This document shows, piece by piece, positions 6,086-16,884 of a stretch of DNA of 25,792 bases. The notes under the pieces were generated by a model. It saw nothing but the letters and a program-made list of their open reading frames with translations, had not been told where the DNA came from and did not search any database. Source of the stretch: a virus; IMG/VR virus record IMGVR_UViG_3300027821_000025, positions 1-25,792 of that record; one strand, written 5' to 3'. Each line of letters begins with the position of its first letter. Within the stretch, counting starts at the first letter, position 1. Both the position numbers and the translations under genes were made by a program.

Positions 6086-6393
6086 TCGCCTCCCGCGCGC
6101 ACCATCTCGTCGAGCATCGCGCGCGCCCGGGCGCGTTCCTCGGCAGACCGCGGCGCGTGCGGCCCGAGCGCGGCATGAGCCCGCGCCACGGCCTGTTCGA
6201 GCCGCGCGTCCTCCGGGTCGGGCGGTGATGGATTGCGAGGCCCGTAACCCTCCACTAACTCGGCGACGTCGGCGATGCCGCACGCGATGATGATCGCGAC
6301 GGGATCGAACTCGGCGCAGAGCGCCTCGAAGCCACGATCGCCGACCCATTGCCGGGCGTGGTCGAGGTCCTCCTGGTCGTAGGCTGCCATCAC
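6082..6393 (-). CDS. Hypothetical protein (103 aa)
   Basis: An acidic N-terminus, MMAAYDQEDLDHARQWVGDR, a hydrophobic stretch with PVAIIIACGIADVAELVEGY, and a helical, Arg/Glu-rich C-terminus. Start and stop both overlap neighbouring genes by 4 bp (ATGA), which supports coupled translation after the replication-like gene. No recognised motif. Position suggests an accessory role next to replication, which is only an inference. Confidence 0.55.
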   Translation of the reverse strand: MMAAYDQEDLDHARQWVGDRGFEALCAEFDPVAIIIACGIADVAELVEGYGPRNPSPPDPEDARLEQAVARAHAALGPHAPRSAEERARARAMLDEMVRAGGE

Positions 6394-6992
6394 TCGCCTC
6401 CCGCTCGCCGTCGCCCCTCAGCCGTCAGCTTCGCGGTCACGAGCTGGCACCGCAGCTTGGCGAAAGCTTCTCGTCCGTAATTTGGTGGAGGGTCGCTCGC
6501 GCGCTCGCGCGCGGTTCTCTCTAGTTGTTCTACTGACTGATCTCTTACTGATCCTGCGTCAGCAGTGACGCATGTTTGCGACACCGGTGACGTATGTCGC
6601 GACACCAGTGGCGTGATCTCTGTCCCAAATGTCGCATGTCGGTTTTCCGACCATGCGACACGGGTGTCGTTCGCTTCGTCTTCGCTTTCGCCCTCCCCGA
6701 ACAACCGGGCCTGGCGGGTGAACGGGTCGCGGGACGGCAGGGCCTCGGCGTGCAGCCGGTAGAGGATCGTGCGGCCCCGGCCGAGCGCCGTCAGGACGCC
6801 GATCTCGCGCAGCTCCGCGAGCCGGCGCTCGACCGTGCGCCGGCTCACACCGAGCAGGAACGACAGCCGCGCGATCGACGGGAAAATCTTGTCGCCGTCG
6901 TCGGTCCCGAACAGCGCCAGCAAGGCCGCCGTGGGCTTCAACGCGGAGTCGAGCGCCGATTCAAAGACACGCATGGAGAGCTTCGCCGACAT
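6390..6992 (-). CDS. Winged-helix replication-initiator-like protein
   Basis: A 200-residue protein. Residues 20-82 form a helix-turn-helix/winged helix of the HTH_36 type seen in phage and plasmid replication proteins: KIFPSIARLSFLLGVSRRTV followed by ERRLAELREIGVL and a strand GRGRTILYRLH. The rest is hydrophilic and of low complexity, and there is no P-loop, so this is not a helicase. The DNA encoding residues 111-143 carries direct repeats and a large hairpin, an arrangement reminiscent of lambda O, where the origin lies inside the initiator gene. It lies 6 bp after the XRE gene. Transcriptional regulator is the alternative. Confidence 0.62.
   Translation of the reverse strand: MSAKLSMRVFESALDSALKPTAALLALFGTDDGDKIFPSIARLSFLLGVSRRTVERRLAELREIGVLTALGRGRTILYRLHAEALPSRDPFTRQARLFGEGESEDEANDTRVAWSENRHATFGTEITPLVSRHTSPVSQTCVTADAGSVRDQSVEQLERTARERASDPPPNYGREAFAKLRCQLVTAKLTAEGRRRAGGE
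6510..6661. other. Candidate replication origin inside the initiator-like gene
   Basis: Two adjacent direct repeats of the form GTGACG-N-ATGT-(TT or C)-GCGACACC lie at 6565-6585 and 6587-6606. A stem-loop follows: TGTCGCATG TCGG at 6630-6642 pairs with CCGA (6647-6650) and CATGCGACA (6652-6660) around a TTTT loop with one bulged C. The core GCGACAC recurs in both elements. Next to the repeats, 6510-6560 is clearly more AT-rich than the rest. Iterons, hairpin and AT-rich DNA inside an initiator gene fit a theta origin. This is inferred, not demonstrated. Confidence 0.5.
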
Positions 6993-6998
6993 CCGCCG

Positions 6999-7457
6999 CT
7001 ACCGTTCGGCACCGACCAGGCGGCTTTCGCGCGCCCGTTGTTTGCGATCGGGTTCACGGAGTTCCAGCCAGCGATCGACCACGACGCGCGACCAGCGCAT
7101 CCGGTTATCGATCGACGGCAGCGGCTCGGGGAGTTTCCAGGGTTCCTTGCGGAGGACGTTTCGCAGGCGGCGGACGTTGGTCCGCAAGTCGCGGGCTAAG
7201 TCTTGAATGAACAGGACGTCAGGATCGGCCGCGGCGGGTATGAGACTTGCTCCCCACCCCCCCTCGGTGTTCACGGCATGGAGTTCCGCGAGGGACACGC
7301 CGAGCGCCTGCGCGATCTTCTCGAGCGAGCGGGCCTGGACGGCCGGCGGCGACGTGCGCTCCGCCCGAAGGATGGTGTGTTCGGTCACGCCCGCGAGCGT
7401 GCCGAGTTCAAACCGTGACCAACCCCGCGCCTTGCGGAGTTCCTCGATACGCGACAT
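6999..7457 (-). CDS. XRE-family regulator with excisionase-like C-terminus
   Basis: A 152-residue protein. Residues 3-60 are an XRE/Cro-C1 helix-turn-helix: LRKARGWSRFELGTLAGVTE followed by HTILRAERTS and LEKIAQALGVSLAEL. After a linker, residues 85-135 look like a second DNA-binding unit: DLARDLRTNVRRLRNVLRKE, then LPSIDNRMRWSRVVVDRWLE, matching the RWs...V..Wl pattern of AlpA/Xis-type winged helices. It is the first gene of the leftward early operon, next to the att region, so it may act as repressor, excisionase/directionality factor, or both. The ATG has AGGGGCGGG upstream. Confidence 0.72.
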   Translation of the reverse strand: MSRIEELRKARGWSRFELGTLAGVTEHTILRAERTSPPAVQARSLEKIAQALGVSLAELHAVNTEGGWGASLIPAAADPDVLFIQDLARDLRTNVRRLRNVLRKEPWKLPEPLPSIDNRMRWSRVVVDRWLELREPDRKQRARESRLVGAER

Positions 7458-7611: not shown

Positions 7612-7899
7612 GCGCACACGGCAAGTTCTTTTCGGGCAGATGAAATACCCGACGCCAATTCAATCGTTTGCGTGGATACGAAAAACTGAAAAAAAGTGTT
7701 GACGTGGATGAGTCCCCGCGCGCTTCGATCATGCGCGGAGGGTCGAAGGCCAGCAGGTTGTGGCCTATCTGGTCCCCATCTCATTCACAGGTCGAGGTAG
7801 CTGTCAACAGGTCGGACCTGGGGACCAAGTTTCCGGGGAGTCTGGTCCCCACCCCCCGAGAAAACCTCGAAATCATTCAGCAAACTGCGATAGGTTGCT

Positions 7900-7946
7900 G
7901 CCCTTTCAAGGCTAAAACGCGGGTTCAAATCCCGCCGGGGACGCCA
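7900..7946 (+). other. attP: attP core: 3' half of a tRNA-Glu(UUC) gene
   Basis: The segment matches a tRNA from the anticodon arm to CCA. It has anticodon loop CTTTCAA (7903-7909, anticodon TTC at 7905-7907), a five-base variable region, T arm GCGGG-TTCAAAT-CCCGC (7919-7935), acceptor strand CGGGGAC (7936-7942), discriminator G and CCA (7944-7946). The 5' half is absent: positions 7898-7899 do not pair with 7913-7914 and no D arm or GTCCCCG 5' end lies at the right distance. Tyrosine integrases often recombine at the anticodon loop and restore the tRNA 3' end, so this is best read as attP. Confidence 0.78.
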
Positions 7947-7985
7947 CCACTAACCCGAAGCAAACAAACGACATAGCCTCAGAGC

Positions 7986-8015
7986 TAGACTCTACCTCCG
8001 GCATAAAGCTATAAT
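7986..8015 (+). promoter_or_regulatory. Candidate integrase promoter
   Basis: A perfect -10 hexamer TATAAT lies at 8010-8015, 18 bp after TAGACT (7986-7991), which matches the -35 consensus at four of six bases. Transcription would begin near 8022 and give a leader of about 120 bases that contains two inverted repeats (8062-8082 and 8089-8114) before the integrase ATG. Confidence 0.5.
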
Positions 8016-8141
8016 ACGGCCTATGCGAGAAAAGCCCAGTAAACGGCGGGTTTGGGGTCAAGGTGGTCCCCCGGGGACCACCCCGATTTGGTCCCCACCC
8101 CATTTTGGGGACCAGCCGTGGGCCACAACTTTGGAGGACCG

Positions 8142-9329
8142 ATGACCCTGCCCCCCGGCATCAGTGAAGAACCCGGCCGCGGCTTCGTGGTCGAAGTGCG
8201 CGTACGCCCATTGCCGAAACGCCGGAAGCGGTTTCCGCGCGACACGCCGCTGGCGGTCATGGAAGCCTGGCGCGAGGACCAGCTCGCCGAACTCGCGGTC
8301 GAGCGCAAGGCGGTGCCGACCGCGCCCGTGGTGGCCCCCGTGGTCGGCCCCCAGCGCCGCGTCGTCGGCCGCTTCGTGGGCACGTTGCGCGGCGACGTGG
8401 AAACCTACCTGACCGACAAGCTGCGGCCGTCGATGGACCCGCACAACAAATTGCAGGCACGGCGCTACCTCCGCACGCTGGCCCGCACGGACCTCGGGCG
8501 GTATCCCCGGCAGGCGATCACGGCCACGCAGCTCGAGACGGTGCTCGCGCAGTGGGAGCGCACCGGGGTACCAGCCAGCGTCGAACCCGAAGGCCGGAAG
8601 CGCATCGTGCCGCCGGGACCGCTCGCCCCCGACACGGTGAACAAGATTCGCGGGTACTGGATCGGGTTCTACAAGGCGATGAACCTCGGGCTGGGCCTGC
8701 CGAACCCGGCCCGCGACGTGCCGCGGCGGACGCCCGGCGCCATCCAGAGCCGCAGCATCCCGTTCGCCCTGGCGGTGAAGATCACCGACCACATCGGCAA
8801 GTCGGGCAAGCCCACGAAGACGGCGGCGCGGCTCACGCTGATGTGCGTGCTCGGCGTGCGGCCCTGCGAGATTAAGAAAATCAAACCGGCGAAGCACTGG
8901 AACCAGCAGGAGCGCACGCTGTTCGTGCAGACGGGCAAAGGCGGCAAGCCGCGCACCCTCCCACTCGATGACCGGGCGACCGAGGCGCTGGACACGCTGG
9001 ACCGGCTGAAGGGCTGGGGCGACTTCTCGGCCGCGCCGGCGGCGCGCATGTTCCACGAGGCGGTGAAGGCGGCGAAGCTCTCGCACTTGGAGCCCATCGT
9101 GCCGTACGACCTCCGGCACTGCTTCGGCACCGAGGCCTATCGAAAGACCGGCGATCTCAAGGCCGTCGCGGAAGCAATGGGCCACCGCAACCTGAAGATG
9201 ACCGAACGCTATGTCGAGGGGGCGGTCAGCGAGAAGGTCACGGAACTGTTCAAGGGCATCACCGCATCGACGCCGGTGAGCACGCGCACGAAGAAAGCCC
9301 GGAAGCGAGGGGGCCTCCGGGCCGTCTAG
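8142..9329 (+). CDS. int: Tyrosine recombinase / phage integrase
   Basis: A 395-residue protein with GGAGG 4 bp before the ATG at 8142; a TTG-initiated extension to 8052 would cross the arm repeats and is unlikely. Residues 1-70 look like an arm-binding domain (EVRVRPLPKRRKRFPRDTPL), about 75-190 like the SAM-like core-binding domain, and 200-380 are catalytic. Visible active-site residues are R240 (VLGVRPCEI), K266 (TGKGGKPR), Y322-x-x-R325 (YDLRHCFGT, with Tyr replacing the usual first His), H348 and nucleophile Y357 (GHRNLKMTERYV). It is the only convincing plus-strand gene, next to the tRNA-Glu attP core, and converges on the structural operon. Confidence 0.95.
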   Translation: MTLPPGISEEPGRGFVVEVRVRPLPKRRKRFPRDTPLAVMEAWREDQLAELAVERKAVPTAPVVAPVVGPQRRVVGRFVGTLRGDVETYLTDKLRPSMDPHNKLQARRYLRTLARTDLGRYPRQAITATQLETVLAQWERTGVPASVEPEGRKRIVPPGPLAPDTVNKIRGYWIGFYKAMNLGLGLPNPARDVPRRTPGAIQSRSIPFALAVKITDHIGKSGKPTKTAARLTLMCVLGVRPCEIKKIKPAKHWNQQERTLFVQTGKGGKPRTLPLDDRATEALDTLDRLKGWGDFSAAPAARMFHEAVKAAKLSHLEPIVPYDLRHCFGTEAYRKTGDLKAVAEAMGHRNLKMTERYVEGAVSEKVTELFKGITASTPVSTRTKKARKRGGLRAV

Positions 9330-12871: not shown

Positions 12872-15753
12872 TACTTCGCAATCCCGTAGAGACGCCCGGT
12901 GCCTTTGAGGAGGTTGCCGGTCGCGGCGTAAATCTGGACGGCGTTGATCGTGGGCGTCTGATTCCAGGTGAAGAAGCCCGACCCGCGGTAGGCCAGGGCC
13001 GCCTGAACGCCATAGACATCGATCAGGGCGGAGCGCCGAACCCCCGGCGCGAGCGGATTGAAGAAGTGTAGCCGCCCCGAGAGGCCGTCGAAGGTGTTGT
13101 CGATTGCGGAAAACAGGGTGACGGCCGTGTCCGGGCTTGCGTGGATTTGCCCCTCCGTGCCGGTATTCGATGTGTAGTGAATGGCCCAGTGATAGTTCGA
13201 GGTTGAATCCCAGGTCGCGCCGCCGTTGGTCGAAATACGCAGCCGGAGATCCTGTGTGTTCGTCGCCGGCATGACACCGAGCAGCTCGAGGAAGTACGCG
13301 TCATAGTCGCTCTGGAAGGTCGCGCCGCTCACGCCCGGTGCATTGCGGGCGGTGAAGTTGACCGAGGCGCTCCCCGACGCCACGTGCGTCTCGAGCAGGA
13401 TGAGTGATCCCGTGGCGACCGGGGCCACCACCGTCGCCGGGATCGCGACGGTGAGCGTGATCGTCAGGCGCGTGATCGTGGCGACGGACGTGAGGTTGAA
13501 GCGCAGCGTGTCGCCCGCCAGGAGGGTAGTGCTCCAGCCGGCGAGCGTGGTGTCCTCGCTGGATTGCGCGCCGCTCAGGGTCGGCGGCGCACTGCCGACA
13601 ATCGAATCGCCGGTCGAGGGCGGGTAGTTCGCGTAGCTGTCTTTCAGGATGTCGAGCACGGCCGACCCCACCTGGTCGGCCAGCATCCGCACGCCGGTAA
13701 TTCGGCACGGGTAGGGCACGGAGAGGTCGCCCTTGATGCCCGTCGTCGGCACGCCGCCCGGATTGATGGTGAACGTGATCGGCCGAATCGCATCGGCGCT
13801 CGTCCCGCCGCCGCCCGCGCCCCACGCCAGGCCGGTCGGCTGCGACGCATCGGCCGTGAGCACCTTCCCATCGGCGACGGGGCCGCCCAGGTCGGTCTGG
13901 TCGATCGGCCGGAACGTCGGGTCGCCGGTCGGGTTGCCGTGGAGCAGCTTCACCGGCGTCCCGAGGTCCCCGAGCGCGCCGACGTTGATGTCGCCCTCGC
14001 CGACCACCAGGGCGTGCAGCGTGAGCGGCATGACGTTGGCGACCGTGCCGCCGCCGCCGCCGCCGCCACCCACCGGGGGTGGCGTGATGCTCCCGCTCGC
14101 CACGCCCACGCTGGCCCCGCCGCCCGCGATGTCCCGCCAGAAGTCGAGCCACGAGGCCTGGGCCGTCGTCCCCTCGAGCAGCGACAGCGTGACGGTGATC
14201 TGCTGGTCGAGGTCGACGATGATCGTGACCTCCGTCACGAGCCATTCGGCGTTGGGCAGCGTGCGCGCGGGCACGTCCATCGGCACCGTGTCGCCGGGGA
14301 GGAAGTCCTCGGCGGCGCGCGTCTTCAGCGTCACCGTGCGCGGCGTGCTCGCGTATTTCGCCAAGAGGCTGTCCGCGAAGGCCTGCGCCTGCGCCTTGTC
14401 GAAGATGTCCGCGCGGTCGACGATGGCTTCGATCGGGAACGTCAGCGCCGACGGCGACTCGGCGACCACCGTCAGCGGGAACTGGACGTTGTAGTCGATC
14501 CAGAAATAATCGCCGACCAGCGGCACCTGCGCGGTGGTCCCTCCGGCCCAGTGGGGAATCGGCGCGCCGATGTTTCGCACGAGCTCCCCGGTCGTCGCGT
14601 CCCACCACCACGGGAAGTTGTTCGCGGCGCTGACGCCGATGGCTTCATGGCCGCCGTAACTCGGCGGCACGGTCGGCACCGGCGGGCCGGGGAAGGGGCC
14701 GCCGACGTAGTTCATCCACCCGATCCAGCCGTTGCTGGCCGGTGCGGGGAAGGTCGGCCGGTAGTCCGGCGTGAAGCGCAGCGTGACGCCGTCGCCGAAC
14801 CAGAGCTGTTGCTTGCCGACCAGGCCGGTCCCGTAGCGGACGACGATGCGGTTGGCGGCCTGCCCCCGCGATTTCGTCCACCGGATCGGCCCGAGGATGT
14901 TCTGGTTCGCGGCCGAGAGCGTGAAGTCGCGCGCGTGGCTGCCAATCGGGAACCACTGAATCTGCTTGTAGGGCGAGAGCCGGTAGACCCACCCGCTCGT
15001 CAGGTCCACGAGCTGATTGAACGCCTCCTCAAGCGTGACGTTGTCGAACGTCACCGCCGGCAGGGCCGGCCCCGCCCCCATCAGCGGGTCGAGCGCGATC
15101 CCGTAGACGGCGAGGTAGGTCGTGACGAGATCCGCCACGACGGTGTGGAGCGTGGTGCCGTCGGCGTAGGTCTTGGTGACCCGGCGCATCCCCGCCGCGA
15201 CCCAATCGTCCACGGCGTCGATCGCCGTCACGGTGCCGACGCCGGGCGCGCCGAGCGGCGTGTCGGTCACGCCGAAGATCGTCCCGACGAAGATCGGCTC
15301 GCCATCGGTGCCGAAGATTTCGACGCGCTGGTCCAGCTGGGGGCGATAGGCCGTCTCGAACGAGTCCAGGTCGAGGACTTCGAGCTTCGCGGTGCCGCGC
15401 GCCCCGAGCTGGTAGGTGATCTCGACCGACGTGTAGCGCGCGTCGATGTTGTGCTCGATGTGGTCGATGAGGATCGACACCGGCGTCTTCGGCCGGATCA
15501 CCGCGAGGCGCGGGAGCTGCGTGAGGCGCGGCGGCGCGTGGTCCGTCGCCTCGACCGTCAGACGCGGCGCGTGGGTGAGGTTGGCCGGCGCGCCGAACTC
15601 CACGACGGCAATCCGCACGGCCTGCGTCACGCGGAGCGACCCGGTCGCGTCCGTGACCGCCAGGCGGGGGGCCTGCGTCGCGCGAATGGGTGCGCCCGAC
15701 GTGTCCGCCGGGACGAGCACCGGCGCCTGGGTGACGTTGACGGGGATTGCCAC
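12871..15753 (-). CDS. Large tail hub/tip protein (960 aa)
   Basis: The GTG start at 15753 has no good Shine-Dalgarno sequence. Residues 1-90 hold five spaced repeats of the type TQAPRLAV. Residues 95-190 resemble the gp27/SPP1 gp21-like tail hub domain (ITYQLGARGTAKLEVLDLDS, VEIFGTDGEPIFVGTIFGV). Residues about 190-540 continue the hub, with EDFLPGDTVPMDVPARTLPN and ITVTLSLLEG. A poly-Gly hinge near residues 563-571 precedes a distal beta-rich receptor region, including LRLRISTNGGATWDSTSNYH and a C-terminal YGVQAALAYRGSGFF strand set. It likely forms the tail tip hub with a fibre-like end. Confidence 0.75.
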   Translation of the reverse strand: MAIPVNVTQAPVLVPADTSGAPIRATQAPRLAVTDATGSLRVTQAVRIAVVEFGAPANLTHAPRLTVEATDHAPPRLTQLPRLAVIRPKTPVSILIDHIEHNIDARYTSVEITYQLGARGTAKLEVLDLDSFETAYRPQLDQRVEIFGTDGEPIFVGTIFGVTDTPLGAPGVGTVTAIDAVDDWVAAGMRRVTKTYADGTTLHTVVADLVTTYLAVYGIALDPLMGAGPALPAVTFDNVTLEEAFNQLVDLTSGWVYRLSPYKQIQWFPIGSHARDFTLSAANQNILGPIRWTKSRGQAANRIVVRYGTGLVGKQQLWFGDGVTLRFTPDYRPTFPAPASNGWIGWMNYVGGPFPGPPVPTVPPSYGGHEAIGVSAANNFPWWWDATTGELVRNIGAPIPHWAGGTTAQVPLVGDYFWIDYNVQFPLTVVAESPSALTFPIEAIVDRADIFDKAQAQAFADSLLAKYASTPRTVTLKTRAAEDFLPGDTVPMDVPARTLPNAEWLVTEVTIIVDLDQQITVTLSLLEGTTAQASWLDFWRDIAGGGASVGVASGSITPPPVGGGGGGGGTVANVMPLTLHALVVGEGDINVGALGDLGTPVKLLHGNPTGDPTFRPIDQTDLGGPVADGKVLTADASQPTGLAWGAGGGGTSADAIRPITFTINPGGVPTTGIKGDLSVPYPCRITGVRMLADQVGSAVLDILKDSYANYPPSTGDSIVGSAPPTLSGAQSSEDTTLAGWSTTLLAGDTLRFNLTSVATITRLTITLTVAIPATVVAPVATGSLILLETHVASGSASVNFTARNAPGVSGATFQSDYDAYFLELLGVMPATNTQDLRLRISTNGGATWDSTSNYHWAIHYTSNTGTEGQIHASPDTAVTLFSAIDNTFDGLSGRLHFFNPLAPGVRRSALIDVYGVQAALAYRGSGFFTWNQTPTINAVQIYAATGNLLKGTGRLYGIAK

Positions 15754-15765
15754 GTGGCTGGCCCG

Positions 15766-16884
15766 TCAGGGCATCAGGAGGCCGGACTCCGAGGCGTTGA
15801 TGCCCGAGATGGTCCACGGCAAGCCGGTCGCGGGGTCCAGCTCGCGGAGGTAGTCGTAGTAGGCGTAGCTGCCCGACGTCGGCGACTGCGGGGTCACGCC
15901 GTCGTAGTTCGTGCCGCCCTTGCGGATGACGTCCATCACCAACTGACTCCCCGCCGCCGACAGCTTCAGGCACGGCCGCGTGAGGAGGAACTTCGGCGTG
16001 CCGAGCGGAATGGCGAGTGCCGGGTAGACATAGCTGTCGCGCTGGCCCGCCGCCGTGCCCTGGTTGTAGCTGGTGTCGTCATCCGCGACCGCCTCGCGCA
16101 CGAGCGTCCCGTGATCGGTGCCCGCCGAGGGCGTGAAGTCGACGTTGCCGCCGTTGCCCGCGTTCGGCAGTTGCACGAGCACGGAGCAGTCGCCCGGGTG
16201 ATCGTTATTGCGCGGCCCCGTGTCGTCGCAGACCACCTGGTCGGTGATGCGATACGCCGGCGGCTCCGCGGGCTCGTTCGTGTTGCATTTGCCGTTGAAG
16301 AACGCGAACCGGCTCCATCCGGCCGACCCCGCATTGCGGGTGTCGATGTTCGTGAAGCCCGCCCCGCCATTCAACTGCTCGATGCGATTCAGTTTGAACG
16401 ACAGCGCCCCCGCCGTGTCGTGGATCGTGCACTTGATGGAGAAGTGGTACCACGTATTGAGCGTGATCGGCGTCGGCACGGTGCCGAGGGTGGTCCCCGG
16501 CGTGAAACTGTTGACGCCCGGCGCGCGCGTGAAGATCAGCGTGTGGTCGTTCCGCATCGCCAGGCCGACGTGCCACACCGTCGCGTCGCCCACCAGCCAG
16601 AAGGGTTGCTCGAACCCCATCAGGGCATAGTCGTACGCGAGGAACGCGAACGAATGAATGATCGTCGCGCTGCCTGGGATGAGCGTCTTCTGTAAGTAGT
16701 AGTTCGTAAACGCCGCGGAGACGGCGGTCATGTTGGCGAACTGCAAGGTGTTCTGTCCCGTGCGCCGCCCGGTCCCGCTCGAGAGGGTCAACCCGCTCGT
16801 ACTGTTCCCCGTCAAGGAGGTCCAGACGCGCCCGAGCTGCGCGAGGTTGTAGTAGTCGGGACTATCCGCCCACAGTCCAGCCAT
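15766..16884 (-). CDS. LamG-like tail protein (372 aa)
   Basis: A clear AAGGAG site lies 7 bp before the ATG. Residues 1-210 show a concanavalin/LamG-like jelly-roll pattern: LIPGSATIIHSFAFLAYDYA, then ITLNTWYHFSIKCTIHDTAG, and LSFKLNRIEQLN. The second half (YRITDQVVCDDTGPRNNDHP, GDCSVLVQLPNAGNGGNVDF, DDDTSYN) is a conserved module in tail proteins of environmental siphophages that sits between the tape measure and the hub. A distal tail or host-glycan-binding function is likely. No enzymatic residues are visible. Confidence 0.68.
   Translation of the reverse strand: MAGLWADSPDYYNLAQLGRVWTSLTGNSTSGLTLSSGTGRRTGQNTLQFANMTAVSAAFTNYYLQKTLIPGSATIIHSFAFLAYDYALMGFEQPFWLVGDATVWHVGLAMRNDHTLIFTRAPGVNSFTPGTTLGTVPTPITLNTWYHFSIKCTIHDTAGALSFKLNRIEQLNGGAGFTNIDTRNAGSAGWSRFAFFNGKCNTNEPAEPPAYRITDQVVCDDTGPRNNDHPGDCSVLVQLPNAGNGGNVDFTPSAGTDHGTLVREAVADDDTSYNQGTAAGQRDSYVYPALAIPLGTPKFLLTRPCLKLSAAGSQLVMDVIRKGGTNYDGVTPQSPTSGSYAYYDYLRELDPATGLPWTISGINASESGLLMP

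Follow-up and report, generated by a model that had tools for sequence, protein, structure and literature searches.

Why do seven copies of a short motif crowd around a tRNA-like sequence directly upstream of a phage integrase gene? The question is raised by the bases from 7770 to 8114 of a 25,792-base stretch of viral DNA (the window), which is an entire IMG/VR record. The original prediction was that this region is a phage attachment site (attP) in which a core is flanked by arm sites for the integrase. That reading is supported by the conservation of the sites, of the core and of their linkage to the integrase gene in four relatives, and we consider it very likely, as judged from sequence comparison, that the TGGTCCCC repeats serve the integrase as arm-type sites in a lambda-type attP. 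We take the stretch 7770-8114 to be a temperate-phage attP, a hitherto undescribed case of an arrangement that is well understood, and one that comparison with relatives now supports.

Clustered sites in the window and in four relatives

Seven nine-base sites had been predicted, and all seven lay at the expected positions, three to the left and four to the right of the core (Table 1), but only five of them were exact nine-mers (TGGTCCCCA). The remaining two deviated in the last base (TGGTCCCCC and TGGTCCCCG), so the word common to all seven is TGGTCCCC. This word occurs eight times in the record, and counting it throughout, the check originally proposed, placed seven of the eight copies within 345 bases around the core; the sole copy elsewhere is at 16491, as had been noted. 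A further GGTCCCC lies at 13965. With up to one mismatch allowed, the motif was found 13 times in the whole window compared to 5.0 expected. For GGTCCCC in the attP arms of the window the count was 7 compared to 0.33 expected from dinucleotide shuffles, and none of 2000 shuffles reached 7. The perfect inverted pair described among the sites was confirmed, as those at 8089 and 8106 are exact inverted copies, and a perfect inverted repeat also spans 8062-8082 (GGTGGTCCCC-C-GGGGACCACC).

Table 1. Features of the attP-integrase region, in window coordinates unless a relative is named. Offsets give the position of GGTCCCC relative to the first base of CTTTCAA in the core.
Feature	Position	Strand	Remarks
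HTH regulator, Cro/C1-type; candidate repressor or directionality factor	6999-7457	-	Weak similarity to excisionase/regulator family
Regulator in relatives	L007 6438-6875; L008 11651-12100; L011 about 4962 to contig end		
Left (P) arm site TGGTCCCCA	7770-7778	+	Offset -132; window only
Left arm site TGGTCCCCA, inverted	7819-7827	-	Offset -83; counterparts at -85 (L011) and -87 (L009); 3 of 5 attPs
Left arm site TGGTCCCCA	7843-7851	+	Offset -59; at -59/-60 in 5 of 5 attPs
att core, tRNA-Glu(UUC) 3' half	7900-7946	+	GCC-CTTTCAA-GGC anticodon stem-loop through CCA
Putative int promoter	7986-8015	+	TAGACT-18-TATAAT; consensus match only, 10/12
Right (P') arm site TGGTCCCCC	8064-8072	+	Offset +162; at +159 to +162 in 5 of 5 attPs
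Right arm site TGGTCCCCG, inverted	8072-8080	-	Offset +170; counterparts in L007 and L008; +168 to +170 in 3 of 5 attPs
Right arm site TGGTCCCCA	8089-8097	+	Offset +187; counterparts at +183/+184 in L007, L009 and L011; +183 to +187 in 4 of 5 attPs
Right arm site TGGTCCCCA, inverted	8106-8114	-	Offset +204; window only
Tyrosine integrase, 395 aa	8142-9329	+	Phage_integrase 6e-17; phrog_1
Integrase residues 1-58, predicted beta-beta-beta-alpha N-terminal domain	8142-8315	+	Structure prediction

Four relatives were recovered, L007 by an integrase search and L008, L009 and L011 by a scan for the core. Their integrases are 73-74% (L007), 56% (L008) and 50% (L011) identical to that of the window, while that of L009 is 45% identical over the available stretch, its contig stopping within the gene. 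Conservation in relatives had been named as a check on the prediction, and it was borne out: all four carry the same core directly upstream of the related integrase gene, flanked left and right by GGTCCCC at conserved offsets (5, 4, 8 and 6 sites in L007, L008, L009 and L011, respectively). The five attPs hold 30 sites in total, four to eight each, and none of 2000 shuffles reached any of these counts. The sites conform to the consensus (T/C)GGTCCCC(A>G), with T ahead of GGTCCCC in 24 of the 30 and C in six. Only two 7-mers are common to all five arm sets, GGTCCCC and TGGTCCC, the latter being the same word shifted by one base (GGGGACC and GGGACCA as listed). Within the same contigs, the density of GGTCCCC was 9.5-19 per kb inside the arms compared to 0.1-0.9 per kb outside them.

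A single sequence alignment was unreliable outside the core, and positions were compared as offsets from it. Two positions are occupied in every attP and others are shared by some (Table 1); a site at -46/-47 is present in four of the five. When the same numbers of sites were placed at random, conservation in all five attPs at -59/-60 and +159 to +162 arose in none of 5000 trials. As this test ignores relatedness, it was repeated as a control without L008, which has a left arm visibly homologous to that of L007, and the outcome was the same. The number and orientation of arm sites differ among the attPs, within a set of five in which the left arms of L007 and L008 are visibly homologous. Some conserved columns also lie between the core and the right arm.

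We scanned 2.9 million viral contigs for the motif at its distance from a tRNA-Glu-like core. The left-side scan returned the four relatives and three other contigs, and the right-side scan the four relatives only. A scan of IMG/VR with the N-terminal domain of the integrase alone recovered the same four relatives, and one with the full integrase three of them. A lambda-type attP requires repeated arm-type sites flanking its core on either side, and here such sites co-occur with this integrase in five phages. The three other contigs (L032-L034) were attributed to chance, having a single motif near tRNA-Glu-like sequence in apparent phage tRNA clusters. Two integrase scans of GTDB genome contigs gave no match, and therefore neither a prophage nor a named host was found; the ends of the window record showed no terminal repeat.

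A paired-motif scan of IMG/VR without the core gave 11 matches besides the L007 contig. These were not relatives and none had a tRNA core. Eight consisted of direct repeats of 12 bases (GCTGGTCCCCAAGCT and the like) that are probably coding, and in the remaining three (L020, L024 and L027) two or three motifs stood in different contexts. The only integrases in these records, G008 and G010, have no GGTCCCC near them. The repeat arrays of L019, L021, L022, L023, L025, L026, L028 and L029 are built in multiples of 12 bases, with TGGTCCCCAAG, TGGTCCCCACG or TGGTCCCCAAC, and probably encode a short peptide repeat.

The tRNA-Glu core

All five phages target the same tRNA, tRNA-Glu. A contig carrying an undivided tRNA-Glu gene (L010; identified as tRNA-Glu ttc by ARAGORN) provided a host-type site (attB) for comparison. 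It has no GGTCCCC near this gene, and one YGGTCCCC in 50 kb. In three of the five attPs (window, L009 and L011), continuous identity with attB starts at the GCC that immediately precedes the anticodon loop, and in L007 and L008 it starts some bases farther left. When the 5' half of the L010 gene was joined in silico to each phage core, an intact tRNA-Glu(ttc) resulted in all five cases, while no tRNA was detected in any of the five attPs by themselves. The core is thus shared with a host-type site, as expected of a lambda-type attP, both by direct comparison with L010 and by these junctions. A search of the attP region against Rfam gave nothing above the cut-off.

The window core differs from L010 at three bases, two of which form a compensated T-stem pair, and L010 may not be the host of the window phage. 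Compared to the other cores, it differs at one T-stem pair, changed from A-T to G-C, and at one T-loop base; as the T-stem change is compensated, the stem is kept. Strand exchange would most plausibly take place within the seven-base anticodon loop (7903-7909). For mycobacteriophage tyrosine integrases, a common core that includes the tRNA 3' half and restores the tRNA is the usual situation (PMC10865867). The same holds here, and this is therefore not a case of tRNA-dependent lysogeny.

Candidate binders of the repeated sites

The integrase has the C-terminal catalytic part of a standard tyrosine recombinase, as a lambda-type integrase should. The top folds matched by a model of the full protein, which is of moderate confidence only, include XerA, Tn1549 Int and lambda Int. 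The N-terminal domain was predicted as three strands and a helix with a pLDDT of about 80-90, both within the whole protein and alone, and contains a conserved EVxVRPxP motif. The arm-binding domains of lambda and Tn916 integrases have the topology predicted here, and residues 1-58 may be such a domain. This domain had no match to Pfam arm-binding families and no significant PDB fold (Foldseek) or PDB sequence match, which is unsurprising for a domain of ~60 residues known from five sequences. Among sequenced phages and plasmids the integrase itself has no close relatives; GenBank phage integrases, those of Gordonia and Mycobacterium phages among them, gave local matches of about 26-32% only. 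A literature search for GGTCCCC together with an integrase found nothing relevant at the level of titles and abstracts. At residues 322-325 the integrase has YDLR (YAMR in L011) where tyrosine recombinases usually have HxxR, and Tyr takes the place of His in all four integrases that could be read through this region.

By comparison among the phages, the sites belong with the attP-int unit rather than with any one protein. The integrase is their parsimonious binder. Could the neighbouring HTH regulator, the leading alternative, bind them instead, as an excisionase, a directionality factor or a repressor of int? We consider this unlikely. The regulator gene does adjoin int in all four phages whose contigs reach that far (window, L007, L008 and L011), and residues 74-144 of the protein weakly match phrog_66, an excisionase/regulator family (E 4e-4). 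A single GGTCCCC also precedes the regulator gene by about 30-50 bp in L007 and L008 only; the motif is missing from this position in L011, and the copy closest to the gene in the window belongs to the left arm, more than 300 bp off. The sites of a directionality factor usually form a short row on a single arm, whereas sites on both sides of a core, in mixed orientation, are typical of integrase arm sites. Moreover, the regulator and the genes that follow it are on the opposite strand to int in the window but on the same strand in L007 and L008, so the attP-int cassette (window 7770-9329) was inverted as a unit in one lineage, and the motifs moved with int and not with the regulator. A scan with the regulator returned L007 and L008 again, and three proteins that share the HTH part only. 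Its C-terminal part is conserved (PWKLPExLPSxDxRxRWxRxxVDxWLE in the three full copies) and may be a fused excisionase-like domain.

The repeats might alternatively work at the RNA level, folding into hairpins in the int leader that serve as a terminator, attenuator or riboregulator, an explanation that would account for the inverted pairs at 8062-8082 and 8089-8114. The leader folded better than shuffled sequences in L007 (z -3.5) and L008 (z -3.1), but folding was weak in the window (z -1.5) and L011 (z 0.3). In L011 all copies on the right arm have the direct orientation, as do most of those in L009, and no terminator-like site was found. A candidate int promoter sits between the core and the right arm, with promoter-like hexamers at about the same place that are weaker in L007, L008 and L011 and weakest in L009; the left-arm sites are upstream of it. 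Overall, we regard hairpins as very improbable. Equally improbable are two further readings, that the repeats are iterons belonging to a replication origin or that they arose by chance in GC-rich DNA: short repeats clustered ahead of a gene can look alike and a replication-initiation-like protein is encoded at 6390-6992, but the sites adjoin int rather than that gene, and enrichment far above shuffles at fixed positions about a tRNA core in five phages, together with the conserved linkage to core and integrase, contradicts both.

Proposed mechanism and comparison with known systems

With the repeats read as integrase arm sites, integration would proceed as follows. The integrase would bind the tRNA-Glu half-gene at core-type sequence surrounding the anticodon loop, and the N-terminal domain of the integrase would bind the TGGTCCCC sites on the left (P) and right (P') arms. 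DNA bending between arm and core would allow one integrase molecule to bridge both, and this bridging would build an intasome that captures the host tRNA-Glu gene (attB). Strands would then be exchanged within the anticodon loop, the phage 3' half replacing that of the host, such that tRNA-Glu would be restored. If the candidate promoter is real, the right-arm sites lie just downstream of the start of int transcription; as they are between this promoter and the int start codon, their occupancy would probably also reduce int transcription.

This scheme resembles the lambda attP/Int intasome, which combines core sites for strand exchange with arm sites that lie at a distance, on the P as well as the P' arm, and are bound by the small N-terminal domain of Int (PMC4880445); the counterpart of that domain in the window is predicted only. 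The window departs from lambda in the word shared by its sites, TGGTCCCC, in having a tRNA-Glu half-gene as core, and in the distance of about 160-205 bases that separates the anticodon loop from the right-arm sites. The nearest layout that we found is the attP of mycobacteriophage Pixie, which also combines a tRNA-gene common core with a tyrosine integrase, and arm sites in mycobacteriophages have been predicted from repeats of this kind (PMC3203893). The predicted arm sites of Pixie, a direct pair and one inverted site on the left and three direct sites on the right, have the counts and orientations of those in L011. The arm sites were compared by number and orientation, and Pixie uses tRNA-Lys where the window phage uses tRNA-Glu. 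For KplE1 IntS, the att region overlaps the int promoter and this leads to autoregulation (PMC2951348). The window resembles the attL/promoter overlap of KplE1 in having arm sites in the int control region, which predicts negative autoregulation, although the int promoter of the window is a consensus match only.

The locus provides an attP-integrase pair with an eight-base candidate arm site and four natural variants, and swapping among the five pairs would allow tests of arm-site recognition. It could also be used as a tool for integration at tRNA-Glu in hosts that have been little studied. The general picture of how integrases work is unchanged.

The identity of GTCCCC in the motif with the 5' end of tRNA-Glu genes, pointed out in the original prediction, was also seen in L010, whose tRNA begins with GTCCCC. 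In this attB, the acceptor stem places GTCCCC (5' end) at offset -32 and GGGGAC (3' end) at offset +34. As the arm motif contains this acceptor-stem hexamer, target choice and arm recognition could conceivably be linked, either because the N-terminal domain also touches the attB tRNA gene or because the arm sites derive from a duplicated acceptor stem, but we think such a link distinctly doubtful.
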